Below, one piece after another: positions 3,001-61,720 of a DNA stretch of 64,000 nucleotides. The stretch spans positions 1,364,001-1,428,000 of the forward strand of contig JACGCM010000510.1 in assembly GCA_014058105.1 (NCBI GenBank). The letters are read 5' to 3'. Source of the stretch: Kingdonia uniflora. Its lineage: Eukaryota > Streptophyta > Magnoliopsida > Ranunculales > Circaeasteraceae. The notes beneath the pieces are model-generated. The model made no database searches, had not been told where the DNA came from, and saw only the letters and a program-made list of their open reading frames with translations. Position 1 is the first letter of the stretch, and each line of letters opens with the position of its first letter. Both the position numbers and the translations under genes were made by a program.

Positions 3001-6000
3001 GTCTGTACCAGTGTTGAAGTGGAGTTTTAAAATATGTAAAGTGACTTCAGAGTGTATGCATTTTCTTGTTGTAACAAAAATCTCGTTAGTTTTATTACGT
3101 TCATGTCTAACACGATAAATTTTAGAACATTTAACTTCTCATGATCACAAAGCTGAAGCTGAGATGAAGAATATGACTAATACACTGTTGGCAAAGCAAG
3201 CTCTGGTTTTACTCGAGGTGCCGTGGACACAGTGTTCGTCTCAGAACGTACGCTTTTCCCAGTAGTACCAACGACCTTGTCCTTTTTCAACTTCTTAACT
3301 GAAGTGCTTTGTTTTCCTCCCTCCACTGATCTCTTCTGAGCAAACAAAAGCAAATAAGAGCATATCTATTCAGAAAACTATTTAGTTTCAGTAAACATTT
3401 GGGCTAGCATAACTTTTAAAATTAAAATAAATTCAAAGGGAAAACTAATGCAAATATCAGATTACCTTGTTATCCTCCAAGTCCCCCTCTTTGGCTTCTC
3501 CTTCAGCCTTCTCCAAATCCGACATCAAACCCCCAGCCTTCTCCAAGCGGTCTTCTAAAGAATCTTCAAGCAACTATGGTTGAGCAAACACAAAAAAATC
3601 CAGTTATTTTGCTTATGAGTAGAATTAGCTAAGAGAAGGCATATATTAGAAAAGTTATTAGATCCCATGAAAAAACAAAGCACTGGGTTGTTCTCAAATT
3701 TTATGTGCTTGTAGGATAAAATATAGAAAAGCGGCATTATCTTTTGCTGAAATGTCAATATCTACAAACATACAAACCGACTTTCTTCATAGCTTGAATA
3801 AAATTAAACAACTCAAGGTTCTTCAAATAAAATCCATAAAGCTAATGTCAACTTCGAGATCTACTAGAACTATAAACAAAATAAAGCAAAAATAAATAAA
3901 AGTTTTTATAGTCATTAGTCATAACATATTACTAACTTATTGTAAAATATTAATACCTTAAATTCATTTCTTTCCTGGTTTTAGTCCTTTCTATATGTAA
4001 CATGTGGCTTGAACACTCCGTACTACAGTGAAAAAAAGTGAGACATATTTTAGTCACAGAAGATTGGCAGCCAAGTTATTGCCTCTGGTAGGGTCAATCC
4101 CATGAAGCGAAGATCAATTCTCAGTCTGTTTGCATATGCTGGGCTGATCCCCAGTTATATAATTAAGTGCGTAATCATGGTCCACCCTAGTTCACATGGA
4201 CCACCCCGTTTTCACTTATTACAAATACAAAATGTGCAGCATATTTGATACCCTCTCACTTTATCCAACATGATCTCTATCCCTACTTTTTTGTCAACTT
4301 CACTCTTCCTCTCTTCTACTGATTTCCTCTTATTATTACAATCTTTTGTTTCTATGCATCTAGCAGTAAAACTATTTAACATGGTAATATAGCCAAAACT
4401 CTAGACGTTGTCACATGTCTGAAGATATGTTACACCCTAAAAAAGAATTTTGTACTTGCCACCTCTAGATTATTTCCATAAAGGATTTTCTGTGGAGACT
4501 TGCTGTCTTTTCTGAGTTCCCTGATTGTTTCAACTATTTCCGTGATTCTCTAGGTGCTGCTCAGCTTTCCGCTTTGAATTTTAGTAATTTGTTTATCTTC
4601 TTCGCCAAGATGGGTGATAAGAATGTTAGGAGTGATGTGACTCGCTTGTTAAGCCTCTGTGGATGTCGATGACCTTCATGAAATTGACCGGACCAACGTG
4701 TACGTTTCTAAGTGCTGAGGACAAAGTGAAGCTTCTCAAATCTGAAAAGCCAGTCACAATTCTGCCAAACTTAGTTGTGATAAAACAACCACTTTGATAA
4801 GCATAAATGTAACTTTTCCATATTCTGCGGCAAGTATTTTGTTGAGAAGAACAATTCTCGCGTCTTTTATGAACATTAGAAGCAAATATTCTCACTTCAG
4901 CTAGGAGGGTAAATCTCAGGTAAAATATTACATTCACCTTCGTGGTTCACAAAAATAACTGAATATCTATCATCTTCTTACCACCACACTTAAGGTGATA
5001 TGACACCAAGGGAGGAATTTTGGGCCACAAAACTCATAAAGTTGAACACCCAAGTATGACCATGTCAGCTCTGAGGCTCCGACCAGTTGTAAACTGCTTT
5101 TTGTTAATAAAGTTTATTCTCGTCTTAAGCGAAATACTATCTTTACTCATTCTTTGGTGAAGAAGATCAGTTTGCTTTTCGTCAAAGAAACTATTTCACA
5201 TGATTGATGTGGCAAGTCTTGTGGAGGTCTTAGTGGTTAGGTGCTATAAAGGTGGCCTGACATACAAGAAAATAGATGCCGAATCACGACAGCCATACTA
5301 ATTGTGTCGGGCCACACTGCAGATTTTTATCTGGATATACATAGAAAGCTTGCATGACTAAACCAGGTAACCAAATCTGATGAGAAGGACCAGAGATCTT
5401 GGTTTCTAAAACTAAGAAAGACCTTGAGAAACTTTATGAAGTGCATGTAGTCAATAAATCTTTTGCTTTCTCCTAAGGTACTTTAGTCAACTCATACAAC
5501 ACTTGTTACTCCGCTCCTTGGTTCATTGACTCCAGAGTGTCTGAGTATTTAACGGATAACTCTTCATTCCAAAGCCTTCACATCTCTAGAAATTGGTTCT
5601 AAATCTAAAGTTTGTTGCTAATACACTCTTTTCTTCTCATTATCTATGTCCTCTCTTATACAAGTACATCACTATCCTTTTATTTTAATGTCACAGTTTC
5701 TCCTAGTTAATCATTCTTGTGATTTTGATAACTATAGAAGTTAATTGATATAGAAGAAAAAAGCATGCACAAGAACGAGCCAAGCAGTGTTAGACAAAAA
5801 TGGAAAAAGTACAACAAATCAAAAGGAAGAACGCCATTAACGAGCCACAAATGTTTGAATTTATGAGTTGTATTCCATGTTTAAATGTTTTTGTGCTGAA
5901 ATTGTAAGTCGGTATGGTTATGAGATGTTTACTAATGCACATGGTTCGAAAAGTCGGATAGGATCAGCCCAACTTGGGATCGGCCTGGTCCGGTTCAGAA

Positions 6001-9000: not shown

Positions 9001-12000
9001 ACACGTAGTAATTCATGCTGCATAGTATAACGAATAGTTAGCTACATTGAATTGAAAAAAGATGCTTAGGTTACTTAACAAATTATAATAACGTAATTTA
9101 CAATGGGAACAAAATATGGTCCAATATATGTTTTGTCTTCTTCACTGATTTGCTCAGCTATGAAGTAACAATCCTATTAATTGAATTGAAAGTTACATGA
9201 CACGTACCAAACTTGAAAGAAAAATACATAACACTTTGTGATTTTTTCCAAACGCTTTTTGACACCAAAATAGAAAAAGTACATGAAACAAAGCTAGATT
9301 CGATCTTAAAACATGAAATAGAATACTTCAACAGATGAAGCTTGAGCTAGTGGAGCATCGTCGTTGTGCTGATGAGGCTTGAAAATGCCCCGCTCTGTCA
9401 TTCCAAGACATGGAGCGGAGAAACGTCTTTGTACGTAAGGTGGCGTCGAGTTACTCTTTTTGAAGTTTCACCCCGGTTCATCTTAGGAGTTTGGCGATGA
9501 CGACACACCCTATGAAGATGATCCACATTCTATGACGTGTCGCGTAGCCAAAAATTTGTTGAAAATCTTCATCGGATAAGAAAACCAAAGAGTCCGTTCG
9601 GGATCTTCTTGGCTTGTAGGACGGGCTCATTTGGATCCAAACCTTGGTGAGGGTTCCATAATGTTTGAACACATTTATCCAAAGTTGCATTGGCATTTTT
9701 CTTCGTGATGGTTGCCGCTTGAGAGACAGAGAACGGATTGAAGAAGTGGATGAGATAAACCATGGGATTATTCTTTCTCATGTCGGGCTTCGAAATGACA
9801 TCGATAATAGACTCCAAGAGGGTGCGAAGGATGTTGTAGGAAGAGAGACCCTCATGGAGACAATAGATGAGTTGGTAAGCAGCGGTTTTATGGAAAGTCG
9901 GTTAAAAATCATTTAAACACCGCGAATTGGTTGCGGTGGAGAGAGAGCTTTGATGCCGGAATTCTCGTATTTACTGTTGAATGACACGTCTAAAGCGTTG
10001 GCGTAGCCCACGCTTGTTATGAGCGGGGCGTATTTGAAGCTCATACGCTTTTCCTTGATTTTGGTGATTTAAAAGAGAAGCTTGACATTGATTTTGCGTG
10101 ATTCGCTGTTTCACATGAGGCGAATCATGCAATCAACAAGTCACGCAAAATCAACATCGAGCTTCTCTCTCAAATCACCAAAATCAAGTGCAAGCGGCCG
10201 AGCTTCAACAACACCCCGTTCTCCGCAAGCATGAGCTACGCCAATGCTCTAGACGTGCCATTCAACGGTAAGTTCAAAATTTCTGCATCAAATCTTCTTC
10301 TTTTTTTCTCTCTCTCCACCTCTCCACCGCAATCAATTTGCAGTGTTCAAATGGTTTTCAACCAACGTTTACCCCACTCTCTCCACCAAACCGTCGCATA
10401 CCAATCTTGCCTCCACCTTATCTATTTTCTCCAAGAGGGTCTCTCTTCCTACTACATCATTCGTACCCTCTTGGAATCCATTATTAATACAATTCCGAAG
10501 CCAAACATGAGAAAAAATAACCCCATGATTTTTTCCATTCTCATCACCAAGAGGGTCTCTTCCTATAAAATTCTTCACACCCTCTTGGAGTCCATTATCG
10601 ATGTCATTCCGAAGCCTAAGATTAGAAGAAGAAAAAAACATGATTTTTCCCATTCCCACCATTCTCCCACGGCTCAACGACTACACTCCACTAGCTCAAG
10701 CTTCACCCGTAGTTTTCTATGTTTTTGTTTCATGTTTTAGGATCGAGTCTAGCTTTGTTTCATGTATTTTTCTATTTTTGAGTCAAAAAACTTCCAAACA
10801 AAATCATAAAGTGTCGTGTATATTCTTTTCAAGTTTGGTACGTGTCATGTAACTTTAAACTGTTTTTTTAAGAGGGCTCAAGCTTAACTATTTTATTATT
10901 TATTATTATAGAGCATGTTTTACAAGTAAGCCTTGCCTTGCCTTGCTATTACGTGTTAAGAGTGTTGGTGTTGATAAGGACTTAGATGAACAGTTGGTAA
11001 AGTGTGTAGACGATAAGCAGTTGGATAAACCACTTGGGAGTTAGGATAAGCGTGGTTTGAGAAGTTACGTGATGGTTTGATTTAGTGGTTACAAGTAGTT
11101 CTTCATGTAGTCTATATAAAGAGAAGTCTGTACGTTGTAAGTTCGTGTGGGTTAAAAGTTAAAACATAAAACATCTCTCTTCTTTCATTCTACTATTGGT
11201 GAATAACACACTTGAAATAAACATTATTGAGACTAGAGATACACCATTTGCACCAAATATTACCTTGTATAAATCCAGGGAACTATATGTCCACGACCTT
11301 AGCTTGCTATAACCCTCCTGGTACCGTGATGGACCCGTCTCTGATCTGACAAAATGAACACCATTAGATGGAATATCATGTGAATCTTACAACACCATAA
11401 CTACATTGTAATTTTCAGTGGAAAATCTTATAAATAGTGCTCAAATACTGTAAATAAAAATATTAACTCAACCCTGTACATACACTTGAGTCATCAAAAC
11501 ATATTCATAAAATATTAACTCAAGTTTAGATACTAGATATATAAAATATATAACTCAAGTTTGAAATATTTTTGCATTATATTAATAAAGTTCTCCCCAA
11601 CTTAGAAGTTAGAGTTTCTCCTAAGATTGATTTAATTCTCACTCTTGTGTTATCAATAGAAGCTTCCGCCGATTGTTTAACAATAATCATAGCGACGTCC
11701 TAGAATAAGATTTCAGAGATCCTTACAAATTTGGGTAGGGACAAAATCTAGAATTAATCTTTTAATTCTCCTACTTGATTAGAAACCACAAGCATAATCC
11801 AAACTATTGCCGAATTTTACCAGCAACACTTGCAAGGCCCCATAGCCGCGGTTTCCGCCAATTGTTTACCAGCAACACTTTCAATGCCTCTATTCGATTC
11901 TAACTACTGCCACCAAATATTTTCAAGTTCATACCAATGTTAGGCAGCTACATCAGGTAATTAATCATTCCCATTGCCGAGGTTTAACTCTTATAAGTTA

Positions 12001-12407: not shown

Positions 12408-12968
12408 TTCAGAGCTTGATAGGTTCGAAGGTAATAATAAGGCGCGAAGTTGACTCACTGGGTCAGCCTGGATTCCTACGAATTAACACATCTACACTCG
12501 TGAGGATTTTTATCTATGCCATGGTGCTGCAAACGACCGAGGGAGGATGAAATACAGACCGAAATAAAACGTTTCAATAGAAGAAGAAAAAAGCACTCCC
12601 TACGATCCTTTAGTTATGCCATCTCTAGACTCAGTCTAGTAACCTACCATACCACAAGTAATTTGAGATGAAGAACATGATTAGGACTTGAGATGGAGAA
12701 CATGAAGGAAAATGGTTTGTGTTTTACGAGAGATTTGAACAAGTACATTGTGGTGTTGAGAAATGTATTTCTATAGCGTGTTTGGAGAAACGTGTTTTTA
12801 AGGAGGATTGCTCAAGGCGCTCTAATGTGCCATCTGAATCACGTAAACGAAACAGGTCAGACATAAAACTTACATGTACATTGAATTTATACGCTTATTA
12901 AAAAGAGAATTATGTGGCGTAGACAAATTATAGGGAACCCCATGAACCTTATAATCCGGGTATATAAC
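12407..12968. other. Region upstream of TAF5
   Basis: Probable TAF5 promoter and 5' leader (minus strand) plus intergenic sequence up to the Copia target duplication at 12964-12968. I see no convincing TATA box, ORF or RNA gene. Short ORFs here have no family features. Confidence 0.5.
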
Positions 12969-13534
12969 TGTTGAGAAACCGATGGGGTAAATCGCAATGC
13001 GGAAGCACAATACGATTAACAAGAACTCGAAGAACTAACTCTAACCAAATAGAATTCGAACAAAGATAATAAAACACATAAGCAAGGTTTAAATTAGGTG
13101 GAAACCCTAAACAGGATCAAAACCACCCCCGACAAGCACGACGAATATATTATCACACTAAGGGTTAAAAGAAGTTCTAGAGATCACTCAAACCTCACAT
13201 CTACCCTTACAGATAATCCCAACAAGAAACCTTATAAAGAAAACCCAATAATCCTCTCCAGAGCAAAACCCTAGATTTCTTCATTTTCTCTCTCTAACTC
13301 TTTCTCACAGTACAGAGGCCTTTAACATATACTCTCTATTTATAGGTTTTCCATTAGGTCATCTCTGAAATACGCATCACGAGATAATTCATCGTTTTGG
13401 ATCAAATCCCCTTCAAAACGAACTTAGAAACAAACGAATAGAGCCAAAATCGTTCGAACGAGTCATGAGGTCGTTCGAACAACTTTCCCACTCGTTCGAA
13501 CGACTTTTCTAGTTTTTGAGCCGTATTCCTAGCA
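12969..13534 (-). repeat. Copia 3' LTR
   Basis: 566 bp, TG...CA ends. On the minus strand it has a TATA motif (CCTATAAATAG, about 13340-13350). It holds three copies of the TTCGAA palindrome starting at 13450, 13471 and 13492 (exact 21-bp steps; the middle copy has one mutation). It lacks 30 bp present in the other LTR. Confidence 0.92.
13450..13503. promoter_or_regulatory. Phased TTCGAA palindromes, Copia 3' LTR
   Basis: Three copies at 13450, 13471 and 13492, two successive 21-bp steps. Upstream of the LTR TATA motif on the minus strand. Confidence 0.7.
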
Positions 13535-13764: not shown

Positions 13765-14992
13765 TTATTTACCAACCAATGCATACAAGTTCCCGCTTAA
13801 AACTCTATTCATGATCAAAGAAGATTTTTGATAAACTTTCATTACTCCACCTCGCCCGGAGTAATTGTAAGCCTCATTATCTAACTTAGAAAGTGAAATT
13901 AGATTATGAGTCATACTCAGCACATATTGAACATCATAAAGAACTACGATGCATCCATCGAACATTCTCACGCGAATATCACCCACTCCCGAAATCGGCC
14001 TTCGAGAGCCATCGCTCATCAACACAAACTTGCGACCCTTACACCTTGCATAATTGCCAAACCATGCCTTGTGTGCGCATACATGCGTTGTAGCCGCACT
14101 ATCAAACACCCATCTTCTTCTGTGGCGAGAACCATCAGCGACCACCACAAGGAGCGCCTCGTCACCATCATTACTAGTAACCGTTGTCAGTTTGTTAGTG
14201 TCATTTTTGGAGCCTCTTGCCGAACTTGTTCCATTACCTTTCTCCGCTTTGCAATCCGATCTATAATGACCCGATTGACTACAGTTCCAACAAGTTCATT
14301 TTTTAAACTTGTTAAAGCTTTTCTTCCCACTAACCACCATTACAGAGTTTTTCCCAAAGGATTCACTACCTTTAAGACTTCTCTCACCAGAAAGAAGCGT
14401 ACTTGTAACCTCCTCAAAACTCAAGGTTTATTTCCCATACATCAACGTAGGCTGAAGATGCTTGAAGGAAGACGGAAGATACCATATGAGTTGAAGCGCC
14501 TTATCTTCATCCTCAACTTTAACTTCGATCGATTCCAATTCTGAAACGATCCCGTTCAAAGAACATAGGTGATCACCAACGCTCGTGCCATCATTCATCT
14601 TAAGCGTATGAAGTCGTTCCTTGAGGTATAAGCGATTAAAAAAACTCTTCGTTTGGTACAAACTTTCAAGCTTTTCCCAAAGACCCTTGCAGTCTTCTCT
14701 CCAGCCACGTTTGCCAAAACGTTCTTAGTGAGACAAAGGCGTATCCCGCTCGCAGCCCTTAAATCCAAATCTTCTCAATCCTCATCTTTATCGTCGCTCG
14801 CTTTCTGGGCCGCTATACCTTCAACCAGAGTTTTAGGTATAGACTTCCATTTCAGTGTCTTGCGTAACCCGCCTTAAGTCAAGATATCTTGGACTTGAAT
14901 TTGCCACAGTCCAAAATTGATCTTCCCATCGAACTTCTCCACATCAAACTTGATCGCGTTAGAAAACTTAGATCTTCCCATCTTGCTACTCT
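13765..14992 (-). pseudogene. Copia gag and start of protease/pre-integrase (truncated)
   Basis: Minus-strand pieces in order: gag (about 14992-14428, with the UBN2-type stretch LKERLHTLKMNDGTSVGDHL), a CCHC knuckle CWNCSQSGHYRSDC near 14280, the protease signature WVFDSAATTH near 14110, and a gag-pre-integrase segment ending SGNLYALVGK at 13765. The frame is broken between gag and knuckle. The coding stops just before the polypurine tract because the rest of pol is deleted. In Copia elements these make the capsid and mature the polyprotein. Confidence 0.85.
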
Positions 14993-15022: not shown

Positions 15023-15618
15023 TGTTGGGAAACCGAAGGGGCAAATCGCAACGCAGAAGCACAATACGATTAATAAGAACTCGAAGAACTAACTCTAACC
15101 AAAGAGAATTCGAACAAAAGCAATAAATCACATACGCAAGGTTTAAATTAGGTAGAAACCCTAAACAGGATCAAAACCACCATCGACAAGCACGACGAAT
15201 ATATTATCGCACTAAGGGTTAAAAGAAGTTCTAGAGATCACTCAAACCTCACCTCTACCCTTACAGATAATCCCAGCAAGAAACCCTATAAAGAAAACCC
15301 AAGAATCCTCTCCAGAACAAAATCTTAGATTTCTCTATTTTCTCTCTCTAACTCTTTCTCATAGTACAGAGGCCTTTAACATATACTCTCTATTTATAGG
15401 TTTTCCATTAGGTCATCTCTGAAATACGCATCATGAGATAATCCATCGCTTTGGATCAAATCCCTTTCAAAACGAACTTAGAAACAAACAAATAGAGCCA
15501 AAGTCGTTCGAACGAGTCATGAGGTCGTTCGAACGACTTCAATAGTCCTCTGGAATTTTGGCCCAAACGCTATTTTCGTTCGAACGACTTTCCTAGTTTT
15601 TGAGCCGTATTCCTAACA
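15023..15618 (-). repeat. Copia 5' LTR
   Basis: 596 bp, TG...CA ends, homologous over its full length to 12969-13534. Palindromes start at 15504, 15525 and 15576. Between the second and third lies a segment reading CTCTGGAATTTTGGCCCA that is also found in the Gypsy LTRs at 38.8 and 44.0 kb. Confidence 0.92.
15504..15587. promoter_or_regulatory. TTCGAA palindromes, Copia 5' LTR
   Basis: Three perfect 12-mers at 15504, 15525 and 15576; the first step is 21 bp and the second is 51 bp because of 30 extra bases absent from the other LTR. Confidence 0.7.
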
Positions 15619-15707
15619 ATAACATTATTTGATAAATAAGTGTCATGACTTTTTAAAAGTTGCATCGTTTCTCTCCCTATAATTCAAAGTTACACTCACG
15701 CGATGTT

Positions 15708-21700: not shown

Positions 21701-24700
21701 GCCTCATTTTTACATTTTTTGATTATCAAGTCCTTAACTTTTAGATTGGGGACTATCTTCTAAGACTTTATTTATTTATTTTTATTTTTTTTTAAAACTT
21801 GGCATGAATTCTAATATAAACGATACTAAAATACCCTAATATGCTTCATAATATTTTTTTTCTCGGGGGCGATTCCCCCGAACCCCCTCGTTTTGTTTTT
21901 TGGCCCCTGTGAACTCAAGTCCTGACTTCGCCCCTGCTCGTATGTAATACTAGAAGCAATAAGACTTGCAAAAATTTGGGTAAGATATCACCAACATCGA
22001 TAGCAGAGATTGCTTGCAACTCAGATGTGTATCGAACCACCAAATCTTCTTTCTTGTTACATTGGTGAGAAGTAATGAGTTGTAGAGAACACCGAAGAAC
22101 CCCAACTTCTTATTGGATTTTGTCAAACAATTGTAGATTCCAACACCAAATCACAGCACTAGTTAACACCCATAATGTTACGCTTCTTCTTCACACTACC
22201 TACGGACCAACAAAGCTCATTTGGGAGAAATTAAATTAATCAGATTTGTCGGGAATCACCCTCGATGGAGCTAACTGATTCTTTCTAAATACAACCCATG
22301 CCACAAAGTTCTTTCACCTTCGATGGAAGAATAAGCAAGAGGATTAGGGCTCAAAAGACTGGTTGAATTAAGATTTGCGCAATATATCACACCATACCAG
22401 CAAAATTAGAAATCCACAAGACATTAAAACATCACTTATATAGGTATGGAACATTAGTCTATCCCTCTTAGTACCCGATGTGGGACAAATAGAGACATTA
22501 AAACATCACTTATATAGGTATGGAACATTAGTCTATCCCTCTTAGTACCCGATGTGGGACTAATAGAGTATATGTCATCCAACAAGATCTTTTTTTGTCT
22601 TCTCAAACAACTAGATTTGTCATATGCTATTGAATTTTACGACACTCATTTGTGTTATTAGAAAAATTACTATTTGTTTCGGTAAAATATATCATTTGTT
22701 ACTCGATACAATTATTATGTGTCTACAATGTAAAATATTTTATGAAATAGTCACGAAGATAAAGAAGATGAAGAAAGTGAGTAGATAAATCTTATTTTGT
22801 TACCAAAAATAACTAGATTGTTATATGTTATTGAACTTTACGACATTGTCATTTGTCATTTGTTTTAAATAAATTGTCATGTGTTATTGGAAAAATTATT
22901 ATCTGTTTTGGAAAAATATATTATTTGTCCTAATTTAAGTACATGGTTTCCATGTAAAGTACTTTAAACAACAAAATTTATCATGTGTTTACATTTATGG
23001 CATTTGTTTGTACATAATTTACCATTCCCAAATCCTCACCATTAGTTCAAGCACTTGGTTTTCATGGTTTCAAATAATGCACCCAACATGTAAATATTGA
23101 TTGTGGTTATTAAAGCTGAGAATGATTTTTATCATTTGTACGTTGATTTCCATCATTTGTTTGAATGGTTTTTTATCATTTCTATGACTGAATGAGAGAA
23201 AGATCGAGAGCAAAGTATCAAAATAGTGCCTTAAGAGTAAACTTGAAGAATATCAGATATCTCGACGTCCAGCAAGTAAATAAGGATTAAGGAAGATGAG
23301 TAAAATGAGAGATAGATCGAGAACAAACTCTCAAAGTTGAAACCTTAGATTTCCAAATTGAAATCTAGAAAATTTAAATCAAACCAAATCTCAGGAGAAA
23401 ACTCGGAGAATATCGAATATCACGACGCCTAACAAGTAAATATGAGGAAGAGGAGGGAGAGATCGAGAACACATCTCAAAATTGAAACCCCTAGGTTCCA
23501 AATTGAAATCTATGAGATTTAAATCATATCAAACCTCATGAGAAAAGTTGAAAATTATCGGATATCTCGCTTACGAAGCAAATATCTCACTCAAAGCTTT
23601 AATGGAGAAACATCTCTCTCTTTCTCAATAAGTCACATGAAAAGACGTGTACTTCTGTTGGGGGCCACTATCTTACAAAGTCAAAGTTTTGAGGCTGGTT
23701 AATTGTTGTAAATACCGAACTTTAGTAGGGGTACAAATGTCTTTTCAAATCTCCAGTGTTGGTTTTAGAATATATTGTTCCCTGGGTTCGATTTTGGAAA
23801 TACGGCAAATACAAGTATTTATTTGAGTAATTGCCAAACTGAGAACCCCATTTGTCTAATTTTTGTATAAATCTAGTGAAATTAGGCTCCACAAAAGCAT
23901 TTATGGTGTTTTTTTTTACCGTTGGATTAGCTTAGGTCTCGTCCCTGAAAGGTTTTAGTTTGTCTCATTTCGTGTATGTTGAGTCCCGTGGTTATCTCAG
24001 ACGAAGATGGCGACAAAATCAAAACCGTTAGACAAGTCATCTACAACCAACGGCCGAGAAGGTAAGTTGGTAAGTAGAACTCTGATAAAAGAAAAGCCAA
24101 ATTGTTTTAACTTAGAAAAATTCTTTTGCAAACCACAGGTGGTAGTTTAACCCTGTGGAAACTCTTTACTCGGGAGAAAAACCACAGGTCGTTGTCGATT
24201 TCATCGACAACCAAAATTTCACTAATCAAAAGAGTTGCAATCTGAAAAATACTTATAGACTTAATAAACCCGTTTTGTGATCATTTCTCTTCTGATCTAA
24301 GCTTCATGCCCTATCTCATTCGTTCTCGCAACAACACTCTTTGATCTCACAACAAGGACCACCTTACTCGAATCACTCTAGCAAATTACAACGGAAGTAG
24401 AATTGACTAATTCAATCCAAAATAAAGGTTTCAAGCTTTTTTTATTTTGATTAGTCTCTCTGATAAAGGATAAACAACCTTTAAAATCTTGGTAAAAAAC
24501 TTGGTCAACCAAAAAACAAAACAAGGTTTGTTTAAATAATGAAAACAGTTTTTCCTAACATCTATTCAAACGAGGCTCTCAAAATAGTCTAAAAAACAAA
24601 GCAGATAAAACTCCTTTAAAACCTTTTTTTTTTCTTCCCAGAAGTCGTTCGAACGATCCTAAAAATAAGCCTAAAAACCAAGGCAGTTAAAACTTTTCAA

Positions 24701-26572
24701 AAACTTGTCTTTTCCCAGAAGTCGTTTGAACGACCCTAAAACTTGTTCGAACGAAGTATCAAAGTAAGCCTAAAAACCGAGGTAGTCAAAACTCTTCAAA
24801 AACCTGTCTTTTCCCAGAAGTCGTTTGAACGGGTTGTTCGAATGAGATAATCAATATTGCTTTGAAAACAGAACAGTTAAAAAGTTTGATTTTTCTAGTT
24901 TGCAAAAGAATTTTTCGAAGTTAAAACAATTTGACTTTTCCTTCATCAGAGTTCTACTTACTAACTTACCTTCTCGGCCGTTGGTTGTAGATGGCTTGTC
25001 CAGCGGTCTTGATTCTGTCGCTATCTTCGACTCAGATAACCACGAGACTCAACATACACGAAATGAGACAAACTAAAACCTTTCAATCTCATACACAAAT
25101 ATATTGTGTAGCGTAAGTTAAATCCTCTATAGTGTTTGTGACCACACACATTTCAGGTGTAGTGGTGTACCAAGCGGAGCCTTAGTACGAACATATTGAT
25201 TATTGAGTATGATGCATTTCAATGACCCTTTGTTCCAAAAAAGAAATAAATTAGGAAGCATATATTCGAATCATTGCATTTGAAGTTTACTTATTGTCAA
25301 GCTGACTAGTTCTTTCCTGTCATTTATTAATCATCAATATGTTCTGGTGACTTGATTGCTGAGTTCTTACCATCGTCTTGATCCTGGTTTGAGTTCGTGT
25401 AGTAGTCAGTGTTGGTGGTTTTGGAATCCTTTTATGTGGTTGTGTAAATGTTGGAAGTTATTCACCCAACAACCATGTATTTTTTGGAAACATTCACTGG
25501 ATATTTACCCCAATTATCTCTAATGCAGGCTAAGCCCACAAAGTTTGAAGGTATTGGGAAAAAGAGGCTATCGAAGCAGACAGGAATATGGACTTGCGAT
25601 CTGTGTGAAGTGAATTTGACAACTAAGAAACGTCTGGAAGTCCACCGTGAAGGGAGGAACCACAAAAAGAAAGAGGCAGAGATGAGTCTTGAAAAAGTGG
25701 CAACAGAAGACATTGTCAATAAATCAAATACGCCATTGTTGACTTACAATGTCTGCGGAGTGAGTACAACATCTGAAGAACATCTGCAAAATCATTACCA
25801 AGGGAAGAAGCATAAATACAAAGTGGCAAAGCGGGGATTGATAGGAGAAGCAGCAAATACTGATAGTGGCAGTCCCATTGTGAATGGTGGGGGAGAAGTA
25901 GTGGAGGCTAACAAAAAGGAGAGTTTGGAAGATTTGAAAAAGAAAGCTAAGTTCTGGTGTGATACTTGTAATGTCGGGTGTACTTGCGAAATAAACTTCA
26001 CAGTTCATAAAATGGGGAAGAAGCATAATTACATAGTGGCAAAGCGGGGATTGATAGGAGAAGCAGCATATACTGATAGTGGCAGCCCAATAGTGGAGGC
26101 TAACAAAAAGCGGAGTTTGGAAGATTTGAAAAAGAAAGCTAAGTTCTGGTGTGATACTTGTAATGTCGGGTGTACTTGCGAAACAAACTTCACAGTTCAT
26201 AAAATGGGGAAGAAGCATAAATACATAGTGGCAATACGGGGATTGATAGGAGAAGGAGCAAATACTGATAGTGGCAGCCCAACTGTGAATGGTGGGGGAG
26301 AAGTAGTGGAGGCTAACAAAAAGCAGAGTTTGGAAGATTTGAAAAAGAAAGCTAAGTTCTGGTGTGATACTTGTAATGTCGGGTGTACTTGTGAAACAAA
26401 CTTCACAGTTCATAAAATGGGGAAGAAGCACATCGCCAATGAAAATTTGAAGAATGGGTATAAGTTTTGGTGTGAGGTTTGTAAAAAGGGATGCAACAGT
26501 GAAAAAAATATGATAGATCACAGAGAGGGGAAGATGCACAATGATAGATCACAGAGAGGGGAAGATGCATAA
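18766..26572 (+). CDS. Leader-plus-U1-type zinc-finger protein (three exons)
   Basis: Model: exons 18766-19014, 19200-19274 and 25529-26572. All junctions are phase 0 with GT-AG ends, giving about 455 residues. Exon 1 begins MAFSSILRRATPLAIHAF, arginine-rich and lacking acids, like a mitochondrial presequence; it recalls the start of plant MAM33-type proteins but no MAM33 domain follows. Exons 1 and 2 end in similar acidic 25-residue units. Exon 3 holds six U1/matrin-type fingers (C-x2-C-x12-H-x5-H); finger 2 (VCGVSTTSEEHLQNH) has Tyr for its first Cys. Fingers 3-5 lie in near-identical tandem repeats (FWCDTCNVGC), and the sixth starts FWCEVCKKGC. U1-type fingers commonly bind RNA, often double-stranded; that role is inference. 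The joining of exon 2 to exon 3 over a 6.25 kb intron rests on phase only. A 31-bp duplication changes the C-terminus. Confidence 0.7.
19847..20335. repeat. ~230-bp tandem repeat, copies 1-2
   Basis: Two copies sharing GAGAGATAGAGAGG, TTGTCATATGTTATTGAACT, CATATGTTTTGG and AAAGCATATCATTTGTC. Copies 3 and 4 lie at about 22590-22960, beyond the inserted LTR element, so the array was split by that insertion. No coding potential. Confidence 0.8.
20780..21220 (+). repeat. Degenerate ACTCGAGGAAGAG minisatellite
   Basis: Roughly 25-35 bp units built on CACT(C/T)GAGGAAGAGAAA-ATC repeat many times with variable spacers, forming most of the left interior of the LTR element. No coding potential is apparent. 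Confidence 0.6.
21498..21936. mobile_element. hAT-type MITE
   Basis: 439 bp. An exact 8-bp target duplication CTCGTATG flanks it at 21490-21497 and 21937-21944, the length expected for hAT transposition. Termini are inverted (CAAGGGCGAAG at left, CTTCGCCCCTG at right). No transposase is present. It sits inside the LTR element, which sits inside the Mutator-like element, which sits in a gene intron. Confidence 0.9.
22590..22960. repeat. ~200-bp tandem repeat, copies 3-4
   Basis: Continuation of the array at 19847-20335 with the same landmarks (TTGTCATATG-TATTGAA, CGACATTGTCATTTGTC, ATTTTATGAAATAGTCACGA). Lies right of the LTR element that interrupts the array. Confidence 0.75.
23200..23600. 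repeat. ~130-150-bp tandem repeat, three partial copies
   Basis: Repeated landmarks are GAGAGATCGAGAACA, CAAATTGAAATCTA, AAATCAAACC and ATATC-GATATCTCG, with copies starting near 23205, 23310 and 23455. Non-coding, within the Mutator-like element. Confidence 0.65.
23946..25085. mobile_element. Element with 188-bp inverted arms
   Basis: Arms 23946-24133 and 24898-25085 are equal in length and mostly reverse complementary (both start TGAAAGGTTTTAGTTTGTCT when read inward). Each contains ACAACCAACGGCCGAGAAGG followed by a splice-donor-like GTAAGT. The 764-bp interior has three copies of a ~90-bp unit that carry the TTCGAA palindromes. No exact target duplication was found (flanks TCTCGTCCC and ATCTCATAC). 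It could be a long-TIR DNA element or two inverted retrotransposon leaders. It lies in intron 2 of the zinc-finger gene. Confidence 0.65.
24645..24845. promoter_or_regulatory. TTCGAA palindromes within ~90-bp units of the inverted-arm element
   Basis: Copies at 24645, 24722, 24743, 24821 and 24834. The 24722/24743 pair is 21 bp apart; the 24821/24834 pair is 13 bp apart, as if 8 bp were lost. Each follows a CCCAGAAG stretch. Confidence 0.65.
25816..26430 (+). repeat. Three tandem ~200-bp coding repeats
   Basis: Each unit encodes a linker (RGLIGE-A-TDSGSP, EANKK-SLEDLKKKAK) plus one C2H2 finger (FWCDTCNVGC...HKMGKKH). Units are about 25816-26019, 26020-26219 and 26220-26430. The middle unit lacks the short NGGGEVV segment. 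Near identity points to recent expansion or gene conversion. Open reading on the opposite strand here is a shadow of the repeat. Confidence 0.9.
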
Positions 26573-28944: not shown

Positions 28945-30246
28945 CTAAGCGGCCGCTGGGGTATCTGCCGGAGACGTCCAAACGATATCCTTAAGCGCCG
29001 GTCTAAGCTCTTTGCTGCAGAACTGATTGTACTCCAATGTATCCCCACCATCTTTCTTCACCTCCACAAGTAAGAAGGTCGGCGTCACAGCGAATATCTC
29101 CGCCTCGATCGACAACTTTCCTTTTCTCCCCCTCTCTTGGCCTTGTAACCTTACTCTCGAATCGCTCTTTTTCACTAAGAACTTCATAGACTTTGCTACC
29201 TCTTCTAGTTTCGATATCACGCTACTTGCCGGCTCCGTTGTAGCAAATCTTAACTCTTCCTTCTCTTCTCTCTTCTTTTCTTCGAATAACGGTGATAAGT
29301 CGAAACCTTCCGATAACGATATTATGTGGAAGGCGTTAAGGGTTTCCGATTGTTTTCCTTTTAGTCCAGTTTCCTCAAAATCGGCGGCGGCCTCGACATC
29401 TTTTTTAGATACAGATTTCTTGAACCATGATGTTTCCATGAGTTTGGCTATTGTGATTCTCGTGTTGGGGTTTGGGTCGAGGAGTTTTGTGACGAGGCGC
29501 CGCGATTCGGTGGAGAACCAAGGCGGACACTTGAAATCACCTCGGTAGATCTTTTTATACATTGCGACAACGTTATCGTCTTGAAATGGGAGGAACCCGG
29601 CCAAGAGAACATATAAAATGACACCACAAGACCATAGGTCTGCCTTTGCACCGTCGTAGCCCTTCTTTCCAATGACCTCTGGAGCAACATAAGCCGGAGT
29701 ACCGCACGTGGTATGCAACAAGCCATCTTGTTTCAAGTGTTCCGAGAAGGCGCTGAGACCAAAATCGGATACCTTTAAATTACCAAACTCATCGAGAAGG
29801 AGATTCTCTGGCTTCAAGTCGCGGTGGTACACACCGCGACTATGGCAGAAATCGACAGCTGATATTAATTGCTGGAAATAAGTTCGAGCAACATCTTCCC
29901 TAAGGCGGCCTTTGGCCACCTTGGCGAAAAGCTCACCGCCTCGAACAAGATCCATGGCGAAGTAAATCTTGGATTTACTTGCTAAAACTTCGTGGAGCTC
30001 AACGATGTTTGGATGCTTAACCATTTTCATCACCGATATCTCTCGTTTAATTTGCTCCATCATTCCTCCTCTCAAAACTTTTTCTTTCCCAACGACCTTC
30101 ATCGCCACGGATTTCCCAGACTTCAAGTTCCTGGCGTGGTACACCTTTGCAAATGTCCCGTGGCCGAGTAATCGGCCCAGTTCGTATTTCCCATTAAGCA
30201 CGTTTGATCCACCACATTCACCGTTACTCAGACTCTCCGCCATCAC
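28945..30246 (-). CDS. CIPK6: CBL-interacting protein kinase, CIPK6-like
   Basis: 433-residue Ser/Thr kinase (SnRK3) that, in the family, is recruited to membranes by calcium-loaded CBL sensors and acts on ion transport and stress signalling. Single exon, as in the intron-poor CIPK clade. Kinase domain about residues 21-276: glycine loop GHGTFAKV (28-35), ATP lysine K50 (VAMK), catalytic HRDLKPEN (141-148), DFG (161-163), activation loop ending APE (188-190). The CBL-binding NAF motif is [12 protein letters not shown] (304-315), followed by a phosphatase-interaction region (about 335-365). Length and sequence fit CIPK6 closely, and all key residues are present. A start one codon later is equally possible (Met-Met). 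A short duplication overlaps the stop codon. The paralogue number is my best reading, not a tested assignment. Confidence 0.95.
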
Positions 30247-38492: not shown

Positions 38493-38797
38493 TGTATAGC
38501 ACGCTCCCGCTAACTACGAGGTGGAAGGTTGTTGGGCGAACTCTCTACTAAAAGCAGGAGCACCCCAGCTAGTGTCGATCGTTCAGGTCGTCAGACGAGC
38601 TCCCTACTAGCAACGAGTACACCCCAAGAGGAAGCTCTCCTAACGACCCCAAAGGCGCGACGAACACAACCGATGGCAACGACCGTTAATCCCTGCCATG
38701 TGGAGATGTAAAACCTAAGACCCCGGAGGGATACCTTAGGAATTGCACACGGCACGTGAGCAGGAGTACTCTTAGGTCAAACCCTCCCTATAAATAG
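38493..38797 (+). repeat. Tat Gypsy 5' LTR, first part
   Basis: U3 of the outer element, beginning TGTATAGCACGCTCCC and matching 56838 onward. It ends in CTATAAATAG, the LTR's TATA box, where the younger Gypsy inserted. Confidence 0.92.
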
Positions 38798-39362
38798 TGA
38801 TCCAGGAGGATCTAGGGTAATTTGGAAATTAGTCAAAGTCGTTCGAACGAGGTTGAGAGTCGTTCGAACGACCAAATTTCACCTCACTGGAATTTGGCCC
38901 AGGAACCCAAAGTCGTTCGAATGACTTATATTTTCGTTCGAATGACCAAAGTTCACTCCACTAGAAATTTGGCCCAGAGACAGATTTCGTTCGAACGAGT
39001 TGAGATTTCGTTCGAACGACTTGACAAGTTTCTAGGGTTTTAGACCAATTGGCGTAAAGTCGTTCGAATGACTCCATATTTTGTTTGAACGACTTTGGCG
39101 GTGTTTATGATTTTTAGGCGTTGTTTTGCCTCGAGATCCATTCTTTTATTATTTCGAGTTCCCTAGTATATAAAGGGAACTTTGGTTATTTCTTTTCTTA
39201 TGTTAGATCTAGAAAGAGTTCTTAGAAAGAAGCTTAGGGTTTTTGGAGTGATTCATTGTAATTACTTCATTTTTAAACAATTAAAACTTTTATTTTTCCC
39301 AATCAATAGGTGTTCTTCGTACTTTTCAGTTAACTAGAGCTTCTCAATCGTATTGTGGATTA
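38798..39362 (+). repeat. Nested Gypsy 5' LTR
   Basis: 565 bp, TGATCCA...TGGATTA (imperfect TG...CA ends). U3 is built of four units of about 74 bp, each with two TTCGAA palindromes. TATA motif TATATAAA at 39167-39174. Confidence 0.93.
38839..39092. promoter_or_regulatory. Phased TTCGAA palindrome array, nested Gypsy 5' LTR
   Basis: Eight copies of TCGTTCGAACGA or one/two-base variants start at 38839, 38860, 38913, 38934, 38987, 39008, 39060 and 39081. Within each pair the step is 21 bp; pair to pair it is 74, 74 and 73 bp. It lies upstream of the LTR TATA box, where enhancer-type sites would be. Function is inferred. Confidence 0.75.
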
Positions 39363-39416
39363 AGTGGTATCAGTTTTCCAGTTACGATTCTTGGGGCATT
39401 GATTGTGGTGTATGGT

Positions 39417-40641: not shown

Positions 40642-43600
40642 GTGAAGCAAAGCTTAGTCGAGGCTATCATTGATCTGGGTAGTCAAAAGAATTTAATTTA
40701 TGAGGCAGTGGTGAAGAAGATGGGCTTGGCTACTGTAGTTCATCCTAAGCCGTATGGTTTGGGTTGGATTCAGAAAGACGCGGAGTTGAAGATCACTAAG
40801 CAGTGTACGCTCAAGTTTGCAATTACAGAGAAGTTTATTGACGAAGTGATATGTGAGGTGGTTCTGTTGGACGTGTGTCAAGTCATCTTGGGTAGCTCTT
40901 ATCTTTGAGACCGAGATGCAATCCTCTACCGTCAAGCTCACAAATATTGTCTGGTGAAGGATGGGACAAAGTTTCATATTAATGCGTGTAAGGAACATAT
41001 CACTACCAGTAATTTGGTAACGGTAACTCAGGCGAAGAGGTTGGTTAATGAGAGTGGAAAATTTGTATTATTATTGGTGAGACCGGTTCAAGAGGGTCCG
41101 TCGGCTACGGTATTGTCTACTTTGGCAATGTCTCCTAAGCAACAAACTGATATGGGGGAGTTGCAAGAGGAGTATGAAGACTTGTTTCTGGGCATATAAG
41201 GGATGTCATGCAAGAGGGGTGTGAAGCATGATATCACCTTGGTGAATGGTGAGCCACTACCCAATATTGGGTTATATCGGACTTCTGTTACAGAGTCTAA
41301 TGAGATCAAGAAATAGGTACATGAACTCCTGGGGCAAGGAGTTATTAATCCAAGTTACTCACCTTGTGGTTCGTCGGTATTATTGGTACTGAAGAAGGAT
41401 GGGTCTTGGAGGATGTGTGTGGATTATCGGGTGCTGAACAAGATCATGGTGAATAATCGTTATCCGCTTCCACGGATTGACAAGCCTTTAGATAAGTTGC
41501 AGACGGCTCGGTTTTTCACCAAGTTGGATCTTAAGTCGGGTTACCATCAAGTTTGAATCTGGGAAGAAGATACTTGGAAGACAGCGTTCAAGACCAAACA
41601 AGGCTTATTTCAGTGGTTGGTGATGCCTTTTGGGTTATGCAATACTCCGGCGACTTTTATGCAGCTAATGAATGAGGTACTTCGTGCTTTTATTGATAGT
41701 TTTGTGATTGCGTATTTGGATGAAATCTTGATATATAGTCGTACATGGGAGGAACACCTTGGACATTTACGCAAAGTGTTGGGCATTTTGCGATCATAAC
41801 AACTTTTTCTAAATGGGAAGAAGTACGAGTTTGGGAAGAGGGAGGTGGTCTATTTGGGATTTATTGTTGGCGGCGGCGAGCTTAAGGTCGATCCGGAGAA
41901 GGTCTCGGTCTTTACTAATTGGCCTAGACCCCGCACAGTGACGAAAGTGAGGAGTTTTATGGGTTCTTGTCAGTACTTACGAAAGTTTATTTGGTATTTT
42001 TCACAAATTGTCGTACCGTTACATTCTTTGACGAAGACCAGGTTACAGTTTGTGTGGAAAGAGCACCATGAGAAGACTTTTCTATTACTAAAGCAGAAGA
42101 TTACAGATTCACCAGTGTTAGCATTGTTTAATTTACAACGGCCTTTTGAGGTCGAGACAGATGCGTCAGACTATGCATTGGGGGTAACCCTTTTACAGAA
42201 TGGGAAGCCGGTTGCTTACCATTCTGAGATATTTACAGGAGTAGTACGCAACTATCCTACCTATGATAAGGAGTTACTTATTGGAGAAGGAGGTTGTGGT
42301 ACATTCCGATCACAAACCATTATAGTTTTTATCTACGCAGTCTAAGCTTCAGCAAGCTCGCCATATGAAGTAGATGTCGTACCTTTAACAGTATACCTTA
42401 TTGATCATGTATAAGAAAGAAGTAGACAACAAGATGGTTGATATGTTATCTCGACCCCTATTACCAACTATTTTCGCTTTGTTGATAGCTATGCAGATCC
42501 AACCTATTGTTCCTTCTGAGTACGTTTCAGGGTATGACGACGACAAGGAGCTCAGCGTGATTCACGAGAAGTTGCTGCAAGGCAAGACATGCAAGTATGT
42601 TATGAAGGATGGTTTGATTTATAGGGGCAATCTACTATGTATTCCTAAGGGTAGAGACCGTTTGCAGTAGATTCGAGAGGTACATTGTTCCCGGGTGGCA
42701 GGTCATTTTGGGGTTGAGAAGACTCTTTTGAATTTGCAGTGTTATGTCTATTGGCCGAAGATGCAGTTGGATGTTGCTCGTGTGGTTTGTGGTTGCGTTC
42801 TATGCAACATATCGAAGCCTTCCAATATGATGATAGGATTGTACTTACCATTGCCAGTTTCTAGTCGACCTTGGGAGAGCATTTCGATGGATTTTATGGG
42901 TGGTTTGCCCATGACCAGGTGTAAGAATGACCATTTGTTTGTAGTGGTGGATTGATTCAGCAAGATGATTGTTCTTAATCCATGTTGGAAGACGGTCACA
43001 GGGGAAGGAACAACGCAATTGTTTTTCAGAGACGTCTGGAGGTATTTCGGGCTCTATTCTTCTATTATTTATGATAGGGAGAGCCATTTTTTTGGGCATT
43101 TCTGGAGATAGTTATGGGGGATGATGGACACTAAGTTGAAAATAAGTACCGTTTTTCATCTGCAGACTAATGGGCAAACAGAGGTAGTTAATCGCACGTT
43201 GGTACATTTTTTACGGAGATTCCATTATAAGCATCCTAAGAGTTAGGATGAGAGTTTACCGTATCTTTAGTTTGCGTTTAACCGGGCGATTCATGGTTCC
43301 ACTTTGAAGTCTCCTTTTGAAGTTTGTTTGGGGTACTTGCCGGAAAGTCCTTTTGATTTGGCGTTTAGTCTTGGCGACAAGACGGTGTCAAGGAAAGAGG
43401 AAGAAGAGCAGGTTAAAGCTCAGTGTTTTATTAAGAAGATAAGCAAGGTTTATGAGGCGGTTGAAACATAGTTGAAGAAGACTCAAGCAAAGTATAAGGT
43501 TCGGGAGGACAAGCATTGGGTTGAGTATACTTTTCAAGATGGCGACCTCGTTTGGTTGCATTTGAGTAAGGAACGGCTTAAGGTGGAAGGTAAAAAGCTC

Positions 43601-43916: not shown

Positions 43917-44001
43917 ACAACAGGGAATTGGGCATGGTCGCATTCCTATATCTCCAGTTCTAGATTGAGCAGGAGCTCAAGGCTCCTAAAGGGGGGAGCC
44001 A

Positions 44002-44566
44002 TGATCCAGGAGGATCTAGGGTAATTTGGAAATTAGTCAAAGTCGTTCGAACGAGGTTGTGAGTCGTTCGAACGACCAAATTCTACCTCTCTGGAATTTA
44101 TCCCAGGATCCCAAAGGCGTTCGAACGACTTATATTTTTGTTCGAACGACCAAAGTTCACTTTACTAGAAATTTGGCTCAGAGACAGATTTCGTTCGAAC
44201 GAGTTGAGATTTTGTTCGAACGACTTGGCACGTTTCTAGGGTTTTAGACTAATTGGCGTAAAGTCGTTCGAATGACTCCCTATTTCGTTCGAACAACCTT
44301 GGCGGTGTTTATGATTTTTAGGCGTTGTTTTACCTCGAGATCCGTTCTTTTATTATTTCATGTTCCCTAGTATATAAAGGGAATTTAGGTTATTTCTTTT
44401 CTTATGTTAGATCTAGAAAGAGTTTTGAGGAAGAAGCCTAGGATTTTTGGAGTGATTCATTGTAATTACTTCATTTTTTAGCAATTGAAGCTTTTATTTT
44501 TCCCAATCAATTTGTGTTCTTTGTACTTTTCAGCTAATTAAAGCTTCTCAATCGTATTGTGGATTA
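44002..44566 (+). repeat. Nested Gypsy 3' LTR
   Basis: Same length and layout as the 5' LTR. All eight palindrome positions are retained (44043/44064, 44117/44138, 44191/44212, 44264/44285) despite point changes between the LTRs. Confidence 0.93.
44043..44296. promoter_or_regulatory. Phased TTCGAA palindrome array, nested Gypsy 3' LTR
   Basis: Same array in the 3' LTR, starts 44043, 44064, 44117, 44138, 44191, 44212, 44264, 44285. The steps are identical to the 5' LTR although individual bases differ (for example TTGTTCGAACGA). Confidence 0.75.
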
Positions 44567-44571
44567 AATAG

Positions 44572-56837: not shown

Positions 56838-57328
56838 TGTAGGAGCACGCTCCCACTAACCACGAAGTGGAAGGTCGTTGGGTAACCTCTCCACTAAAAG
56901 TAGGACAATCCCAGCTAGCGTCGACCGTTCAAGTCGTCAGATGAGCTCCCTGCTAGCGATGAGCATACCCCAGGAGGGAGCTCTCCTAATGACCCTAAAG
57001 GCACGACGAATACAACGGATGGTAACGAGCGTTAACCCCTACCCATATGGAGATGTAAAGCCTACGACCCTGGAGGGATACCTTAGTAATTACCCACGGT
57101 ACTTGCGCAGGAGTACTCTTAGGTCAAACCCTCTCTATAAATAGAGAGGGGAGGTAACCTAGGAAATGACCTTCTTTTCGAGCACTTCCTCTTCCTCCAA
57201 AGAAACCAAAAGATCTTAAGGGGAAGAAACCCGAAGAGAGTCGAGCGGTGCCCTCCTCCAGTGGGACGTATCAAGCCCAAAACTAATGCACACTTATTAT
57301 CATCCTTGAGATGAATCACAGAATTGCA
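56838..57328 (+). repeat. Tat Gypsy 3' LTR
   Basis: 491 bp, intact from TGTAGGAGCACGC to GAATTGCA, with TATA motif CTATAAATAGAG near 57135. It serves as the uninterrupted reference for the split 5' copy. Confidence 0.92.
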
Positions 57329-57442
57329 ACTATTTTCCATTATGGTGGGCTGAGATGACCCTGAGTACTTCTTTTCTCCTCTGACCCAGTTTAAGATAAA
57401 AGAAGATAACTTTTATGTAGTCAAAAAATATCATCGTCTCAA

Positions 57443-61102: not shown

Positions 61103-61720
61103 TGTTAGGATTATGGCTCAAAATAGGGGAAAGTTATTCGAACGAGTGGGGAAGTCGTTCGAACGATAGAGTTTTTGCTGAGGTCATTCAAACAAAAAAT
61201 GCTATGTTTGTTTATTTCTAAGTTCATTTGGAAGATGATTTAATTCAAAAAGATGGTTTATCTCGTGATGCATACTTCGGAGATGACCTAATAGAGAGTC
61301 TATAAATACTGAGTGTGGGCTCAAAGCCTCCTTATACAGTGTGTGAGTTAAAAGCCTCTATGTGAGAAACTTGAAATCTAGTAGAGATGTAGCCTCTGTG
61401 GTAGACCTTGTAAAGAGTTGGTCTTTACAAGGAAGAAGGTGGAGGGTGTTGTTATCTTGGGATTTAATTAGTAAGAGGAGAAGTACCTCTTGGTTGCTAA
61501 GAAGTGAAATCAAGGTAGAGAGAAAATTGAAGGGTTTCAAGAAGAAGATATGCAACATGGTCTTTGTTGAGGTAATCTTCGATGTTCTTGATGGATCTCT
61601 TATGTTTCTTTTATCTATTGTAAATCTATGTGAAGATTATTGCGGGATTAGGATTTCAATGTTTGTTAGAATCCCTTGAGTGCTTGTAATTGAACTTGGA
61701 TACATAATAAATTTCTAGCT
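61103..61720 (+). mobile_element. Diverged LTR related to the 13-kb Copia (solo or truncated)
   Basis: Starts TGTTAGGATTATGGCTCAAAA, matching the minus-strand start of the LTRs at 12969-15618, then TTCGAA palindromes (61134, 61155, and a weak one at 61184), ATTATCTCGTGATGC-type text, GAGATGACCTAATAGAGAG and TATAAATA near 61301. The 3' part (R/U5) no longer matches. The end is set near the G run. No partner LTR or Copia coding was seen nearby. Confidence 0.65.
61134..61195. promoter_or_regulatory. TTCGAA palindromes in the 61-kb LTR
   Basis: Copies TTATTCGAACGA at 61134 and TCGTTCGAACGA at 61155, again 21 bp apart, plus a decayed copy at 61184. Confidence 0.65.

Follow-up and report, generated by a model that had tools for sequence, protein, structure and literature searches.

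Mobile elements at the locus

The window, meaning the whole 64-kb stretch of DNA that was analysed, consists of plant DNA with many mobile elements. One open reading frame (ORF; 28948-30243, minus strand) codes for a CIPK6-like kinase with eudicot relatives; its best-scoring named match is from Nelumbo nucifera (85%), and identities reach 86% among the best 120 of 7659 matches. The sequence displayed above is the 5' LTR of a Gypsy element, for which the following features were identified.

38793-38797 and 44567-44571: target duplication AATAG of the Gypsy insertion
38798..39362, plus strand: 5' LTR of Ty3/Gypsy type, TG...TA (566-bp match to 44002-44567, 92.2%)
38839..39092, unstranded: U3 array of eight sites like TCGTTCGAACGA in four pairs
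38888..38901, unstranded: TGGAATTTGGCCCA, the segment of a long spacer common to the Gypsy and Copia 5' LTRs
39094..39101, plus strand: TTTGGCGG, adjoining the last palindrome
39167..39173, plus strand: TATA box TATATAA, 75 bp downstream of the array
39365..39373, plus strand: primer-binding-site-like TGGTATCAG
41803..42342, plus strand: Gypsy pol piece, RT/RNase H (Pfam RT_RNaseH_2, E 9e-22)
42671..42952, plus strand: Gypsy pol piece, integrase zinc-binding domain (Pfam Integrase_H2C2, E 3e-15)
43988..43998, plus strand: polypurine tract directly before the 3' LTR
44002..44566, plus strand: 3' LTR of Gypsy type
44043..44296, unstranded: eight-site array of the 3' LTR

The AATAG target duplication is confirmed by an uninterrupted paralogue of the insertion site at 57 kb (57048-57329). 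Within pol, RT/RNase H (41.8 kb) precedes the integrase zinc-binding domain (42.7 kb), which is the Gypsy order. Five of the eight Gypsy pieces searched matched no Pfam family, the RT, integrase, and SH3 pieces being the exceptions. TGGTATCAG may be a primer-binding site of the initiator-Met tRNA type, and TTTGGCGG resembles an E2F site; the 3' LTR has CTTGGCGG where the 5' LTR has TTTGGCGG. The eight sites lie 75-328 bp upstream of the TATA box in each Gypsy LTR.

Similar sites occur in a Copia element, in a further LTR at 61 kb, and in an element with inverted arms.

12964-12968 and 15619-15623: target duplication ATAAC of the Copia insertion
12969..13534, minus strand: Copia 3' LTR with a short-type array (sites 13450, 13471, 13492)
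13768..14724, minus strand: Copia internal region, with copia-type gag (14431-14724) and Pol_BBD plus zinc knuckle (13768-14295; Pfam)
15023..15618, minus strand: Copia 5' LTR with a long-type array (sites 15504, 15525, 15576) and a Gypsy-like spacer
15551..15565, unstranded: TGGAATTTTGGCCCA, the spacer segment common to the Copia 5' LTR and the Gypsy array (38888-38901)
23946..25085, unstranded: 1.14-kb element with 188-bp inverted arms (93%) and internal repeats of ~77 bp
24645, 24722, 24743, 24821, 24834: the five sites of the inverted-arm element
61103..61330, plus strand: Copia LTR, diverged first part, with sites 61134, 61155, and decayed 61184 (TATA at 61301)

A Pfam search of two Copia internal pieces found no later pol domains. 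A target duplication was looked for around the inverted-arm element and none was clear. About 360 bp past this element is an ORF (25448-26572, plus strand) with five zf-met zinc-finger stretches and 192-bp internal repeats. The 61-kb LTR is 73-78% alike to the Copia LTRs, in reverse orientation, and by this likeness it is a member of the same Copia family as the LTRs at 13 and 15 kb.

Distribution of the palindrome

The sequence TCGTTCGAACGA is a 12-bp self-complementary palindrome. It has 29 sites at ≤2 mismatches in the 64-kb window, against a mean of 1.52 and a maximum of 6 in 100 dinucleotide-preserving shuffles. All 29 sites are inside four mobile elements (16 in the Gypsy LTRs, six in the Copia LTRs, five in the inverted-arm element, and two in the 61-kb LTR), with none elsewhere in the window. 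The four pairs in the 5' Gypsy LTR start at 38839/38860, 38913/38934, 38987/39008, and 39060/39081, exactly where the initial annotation had placed them, with 21 bp within each pair and pair-to-pair steps of 74, 74, and 73 bp. The annotation had described eight copies of one sequence; their positions hold but not their exact letters, as four are exact, three have one mismatch, and one has two. It had also reported, correctly, that all positions are kept in the 3' LTR, where the eight sites recur at +5204 (three exact, five with one mismatch).

Outside the Gypsy element, the 21-bp steps previously listed were recovered at 13450/13471/13492, 15504/15525, 24722/24743, and 61134/61155, with one mismatch each at 13471, 24722, and 24743 and two at 61134. 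The intervals beyond those first noted are 51 bp (15525-15576), 77 bp (24645-24722), 78 bp (24743-24821), and 13 bp (24821-24834), and 29 bp separates 61155 from the three-mismatch site 61184. At this last site (61184-61195) all three CpGs have become CpA, and site and spacing were lost together.

Across 30 sites of one listing the center is always TTYRAA (26 TTCGAA, three TTTGAA, and one TTCAAA), and palindrome positions 4, 5, 8, and 9 are invariant. These sites were gathered by similarity, but for the 16 in the Gypsy LTRs the set is complete by register.

Array position and pair spacing

All five LTR copies (two Gypsy, two Copia, and the one at 61 kb) have a TATA box downstream of the array. 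The two are 106 bp apart in each Copia LTR, and at 61 kb the TATA box is 135 bp away from site 61155. This position in every LTR copy makes the palindromes features of U3, the part in which LTR promoters carry their enhancers. As in a U3 enhancer array, they lie inside the LTR and occur in both LTRs of the Gypsy and Copia elements; the inverted-arm element is not an LTR element.

Among sites with ≤2 mismatches, 21 bp accounts for 13 of the 14 neighboring-site intervals shorter than 40 bp (13 of 15 when decayed 61184 is counted) and for 13 of the 23 intervals shorter than 120 bp. Grouped by spacer type, these 13 intervals are seven cases and not 13 independent ones. A length of 9 bp is found in seven of nine spacer types from three kinds of element (intervals <40 bp, decayed 61184 counted). 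Two intervals go against the 21-bp rule, 13 bp at 24821/24834 and 29 bp at 61155/61184, and both involve decayed sites.

Copying between units and elements

Part of this regularity is shared descent. Tandem Repeats Finder reported a period-74 tandem repeat at 38835-39020 with 2.5 copies, and the fourth pair falls outside it. The recurrence of 21 bp in several elements had been presented as if the cases were independent, which does not survive the comparison: the 74-bp step comes from tandem repetition, and the LTR at 61 kb is of the Copia family. An independent origin of the pairing in the 61-kb LTR was rejected on the latter ground. For the Copia long-type array it was rejected less firmly, on its Gypsy-like spacer.

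The Copia 5' LTR holds CTGGAATTTTGGCCCA between its second and third sites, and the Gypsy array has it in the same place. With motifs masked, the sequence CTGGAATTT(T)GGCCCA common to the Copia long-type and Gypsy arrays scored 25 against 15.3 ± 2.2 in shuffles (2 of 1000), and the other seven of the eight Gypsy-to-array comparisons gave none below 5%. Two Copia-to-inverted-arm comparisons were not significant, and the inverted-arm element had no flank similarity to either LTR after the same masking. When each of the three Gypsy long spacers was aligned globally with the Copia long spacer, 1, 0, and 0 of 1000 shuffles scored as well. The shared Gypsy-like module in Copia runs opposite to transcription, relative to Gypsy. 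A spacer-like match at 5013-5027 (two mismatches) was set aside as being at chance level.

Within the Gypsy array, long spacers 1 and 3 are weakly alike (18 of 1000 shuffles) and spacers 2 and 3 have no detectable likeness (456 of 1000 shuffles). Shared descent of the fourth unit is therefore weaker than that of the first units.

The arrays in the two LTRs of the single Copia insertion differ by 30 bp (13450-13503 versus 15504-15587), one with a short and the other with a long spacer. The short 9-bp spacer is CTTTCCCAC / CTTCCCCAC in the Copia 3' LTR and the 61-kb LTR. Both LTRs of an insertion are identical at the start, so this difference dates from after the insertion; exchange with another copy is its probable source.

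Constraint on palindrome and spacing

These patterns of copying raise the explanation that chance produced a palindrome pair, which was then duplicated in tandem within an LTR and spread between elements by recombination, with neither site nor spacing having a function. The 74-bp tandem repeat, the spacer common to the Copia long-type and Gypsy arrays, and the single family of the Copia and 61-kb LTRs all agree with it. However, unselected drift would affect palindromes and spacers equally, and the four Gypsy units differ very unequally. Their 9-bp inner spacers have 37 of 54 (5' LTR) and 38 of 54 (3' LTR) pairwise differences, close to random, whereas non-CpG palindrome positions have 0 of 72 and 3 of 72. 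By column, 12 of 12 (5' LTR) and 11 of 12 (3' LTR) non-CpG motif positions are invariant among the units, as are 8 of 12 and 9 of 12 CpG motif positions and 0 of 9 spacer positions in either LTR. Non-CpG motif and spacer columns differ at Fisher P values of 3e-6 and 3e-5, for rows that are related by descent. The inverted-arm element is also at odds with pure inheritance, as it has a 9-bp spacer at 24722/24743 despite its lack of flank similarity to the LTRs. Spacers a and c have GTTGAGA in common at positions one base apart, yet both remain 9 bp long (shuffle P = 0.0037, uncorrected for 21 pairs), and spacers b and d have ATATT in common, also shifted by one base (P = 0.08, uncorrected, among 21 spacer pairs).

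Changes since insertion give a different picture, and one that the inheritance explanation would accommodate. Between the two Gypsy LTRs, motif change is not significantly slowed: 1 of 50 non-CpG motif positions differs, compared with 14 of 161 in array spacers (P = 0.13) and 18 of 291 in the rest of the LTR (P = 0.33). The stronger conservation of the motif than of the spacers, as would suit a U3 enhancer array, is thus seen between Gypsy units and is unseen in the post-insertion comparison. Such a lack of slowing is expected of dead copies, but with it the argument for constraint rests only on the older divergence between units. From these comparisons, the 21-bp pairing is more than copying, with the palindrome and its spacing held while the letters between drifted. 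Both palindrome and pairing distance appear to have been under selection while the elements were active, the strongest evidence being the Gypsy units and the recurring 9-bp spacers. We consider inheritance without function unlikely.

Helical phase

The initial annotation proposed a cooperative binding array with all sites facing one side of the helix. Pair spacing is a whole number of turns regardless of spacer sequence, and the spacers differ. For the eight Gypsy sites, R at 10.5 bp is 0.978, a value reached in 0.12% of draws when both pair and unit distances are random. With d fixed at 21, 3.5% of randomly drawn unit periods phase equally well. Whole-array phasing does not extend to all carriers, since repeats in the inverted-arm element step by 77/78 bp, which are not whole turns, and are out of phase. 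The proposal stands as far as spacing-constrained U3 palindromes upstream of a TATA box are concerned, which fit one helix face. The two-turn pair is well supported; the case for phasing of the whole array is weak.

CpG change and methylation

Of the eight motif differences that separate the two Gypsy LTRs, seven are transitions at CpGs. Motif CpGs differ at 7 of 46 positions, CpGs of the array spacers at 1 of 4, and those outside the array at 3 of 14; at these small numbers no difference is detectable between motif CpGs and those outside the array (7/46 versus 3/14, Fisher P = 0.69). The array had also been suggested to be a dense, symmetrical methylation target. Since CpG loss in the palindromes is not detectably different from that elsewhere in the LTR, no special methylation role shows, and these few positions give the suggestion no support.

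The same counts bear on a role in anti-silencing, in which a VANC-like, transposon-encoded protein would remove DNA methylation and other elements would borrow its site. VANDAL motifs in non-coding tandem repeats in Arabidopsis, and VANC6 motifs in the unrelated element AT9TSD1, have been described (PMC5735166). The arrays described here are likewise in tandem repeats of non-coding element DNA and common to unrelated elements, and one carrier is the inverted-arm element. The VANC motifs (YAGTATTAY, AGTTGTCC/AGTTGTAC) differ from the palindrome, however, and most arrays here are in LTRs (PMC5735166). Change at motif CpGs is not detectably different from that at other LTR CpGs, which does not indicate lasting protection in these copies, and we regard this explanation as very improbable.

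Folding of U3 RNA

A palindrome pair could also act in RNA, folding as a hairpin of ~12 bp with a 9-nt loop that would serve RNA stability, packaging, or siRNA production. U3 is the 3' end of the genomic RNA, and 44030-44310 folds at -108.2 kcal/mol (z -7.3). Such a z is nonetheless expected from any set of palindromes, and the predicted fold pairs sites across units. A hairpin does not need a loop of exactly 9 nt, and in three of the four 5' units the flanks outside a pair agree at no more than their first base. The fold is strong but uninformative, and an RNA-level element is highly unlikely.

A putative transcriptional enhancer

The explanation that we favor (probability about 0.6) is that the array is a U3 transcriptional enhancer whose palindromes, in pairs separated by two helical turns, would serve a protein that is dimeric and probably encoded by the host. 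This reading is drawn from one 64-kb window. A DNA-binding protein is predicted to occupy each 12-bp palindrome as a dimer. The dimers of a pair would sit side by side on the same DNA face at a distance of 21 bp, or two helical turns, where they may bind cooperatively and activate transcription of the element. One host-encoded protein would serve the Gypsy, Copia, and inverted-arm elements; a host source is proposed because these three unrelated element types have the same site. Alternatively, the protein may be one element's own, exploited by the other elements. The outer GTCGTT presumably resembles an IDD zinc-finger site.

Each site is self-complementary, so that any two copies are at once direct and inverted repeats of each other. 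Such repeats could let the segments between sites duplicate, delete, or flip, and the Gypsy-like Copia module does run opposite to transcription. A wider and doubtful reading would make the paired, helix-phased palindrome a common "landing code" for three unrelated element classes, with one trans-acting reader and an orientation-free promoter module spreading between families. The reader may be a host activator or an element-borne anti-silencer. If the enhancer sites work as proposed, one DNA-binding protein would control several unrelated element families at once, and the strict spacing would be a simple handle for finding that protein and for testing promoter-module movement between element families.

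As a special case of the enhancer, a host protein with a CXC domain could bind the central TTCGAA and tie transcription to dividing cells. The plant candidates would be TSO1/TCX of the CPP family. The E2F-like TTTGGCGG adjoins the array, and the TTYRAA found at the center of all 30 sites is the LIN54 consensus, bound in the CHR element (PMC4974476). That center was partly guaranteed by collecting sites by similarity, and CpG decay alone would yield TTTGAA and TTCAAA. Unlike the CHR element, where LIN54 contacts are mostly within 8 bp (PMC4974476), the sites here are conserved over 12 bp and paired 21 bp apart. We regard a CXC-domain protein as a candidate lead, though a distinctly unlikely one.

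Known systems and occurrences elsewhere

Enhancer repeats in U3 are known from plant LTR retrotransposons, where the BII boxes of Tnt1 and the 13-bp motif of Tto1 are sites for host factors. These systems have a short repeated motif upstream of the TATA box in U3, as here; unlike the present sites, their motifs are not known to be perfect palindromes in fixed 21-bp pairs that are common to Copia, Gypsy, and another type of element. The heat shock element has the consensus nTTCnnGAAn, and a cluster of such elements was rejected since the sites have no gap between TTC and GAA. In ONSEN/ATCOPIA78, LTR motifs (heat-responsive elements bound by HSFA2) recruit a host factor, as is proposed here; the motif here is unlike that of ONSEN in having TTCGAA without the two-base gap, in a CpG-rich palindrome. 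The strong HRE of ONSEN is reportedly conserved over millions of years (PMC12786077, PMC9780303).

Our literature search, which may miss other wordings, tied the motif to no plant protein and found no description of it in plant elements. Among the matches listed for the 12-mer, titles and the starts of abstracts were on immunology or CpG oligonucleotides. A search for mis-annotated plant proteins with a 75-aa frame across the array gave no candidate, and no relative of the Gypsy pol piece was found in viral contigs. One viral contig, IMGVR_UViG_3300005583_000044, has four exact copies of TCGTTCGAACGA at 11542-11820 between two ORFs of >180 aa, two of them 21 bp apart. The contig was judged to be phage-type from its ORFs, and its array is probably an unrelated, operator-like one. 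Five stretches of prokaryote genomes hold two exact sites at a distance of 3-33 bases, with steps from start to start of 42, 34, 21, 29, and 29; we regard these as unrelated or due to chance. In a Phycisphaerales contig, two exact palindromes lie at a 21-bp spacing (144-176) among similar short repeats bounded by CGAT.
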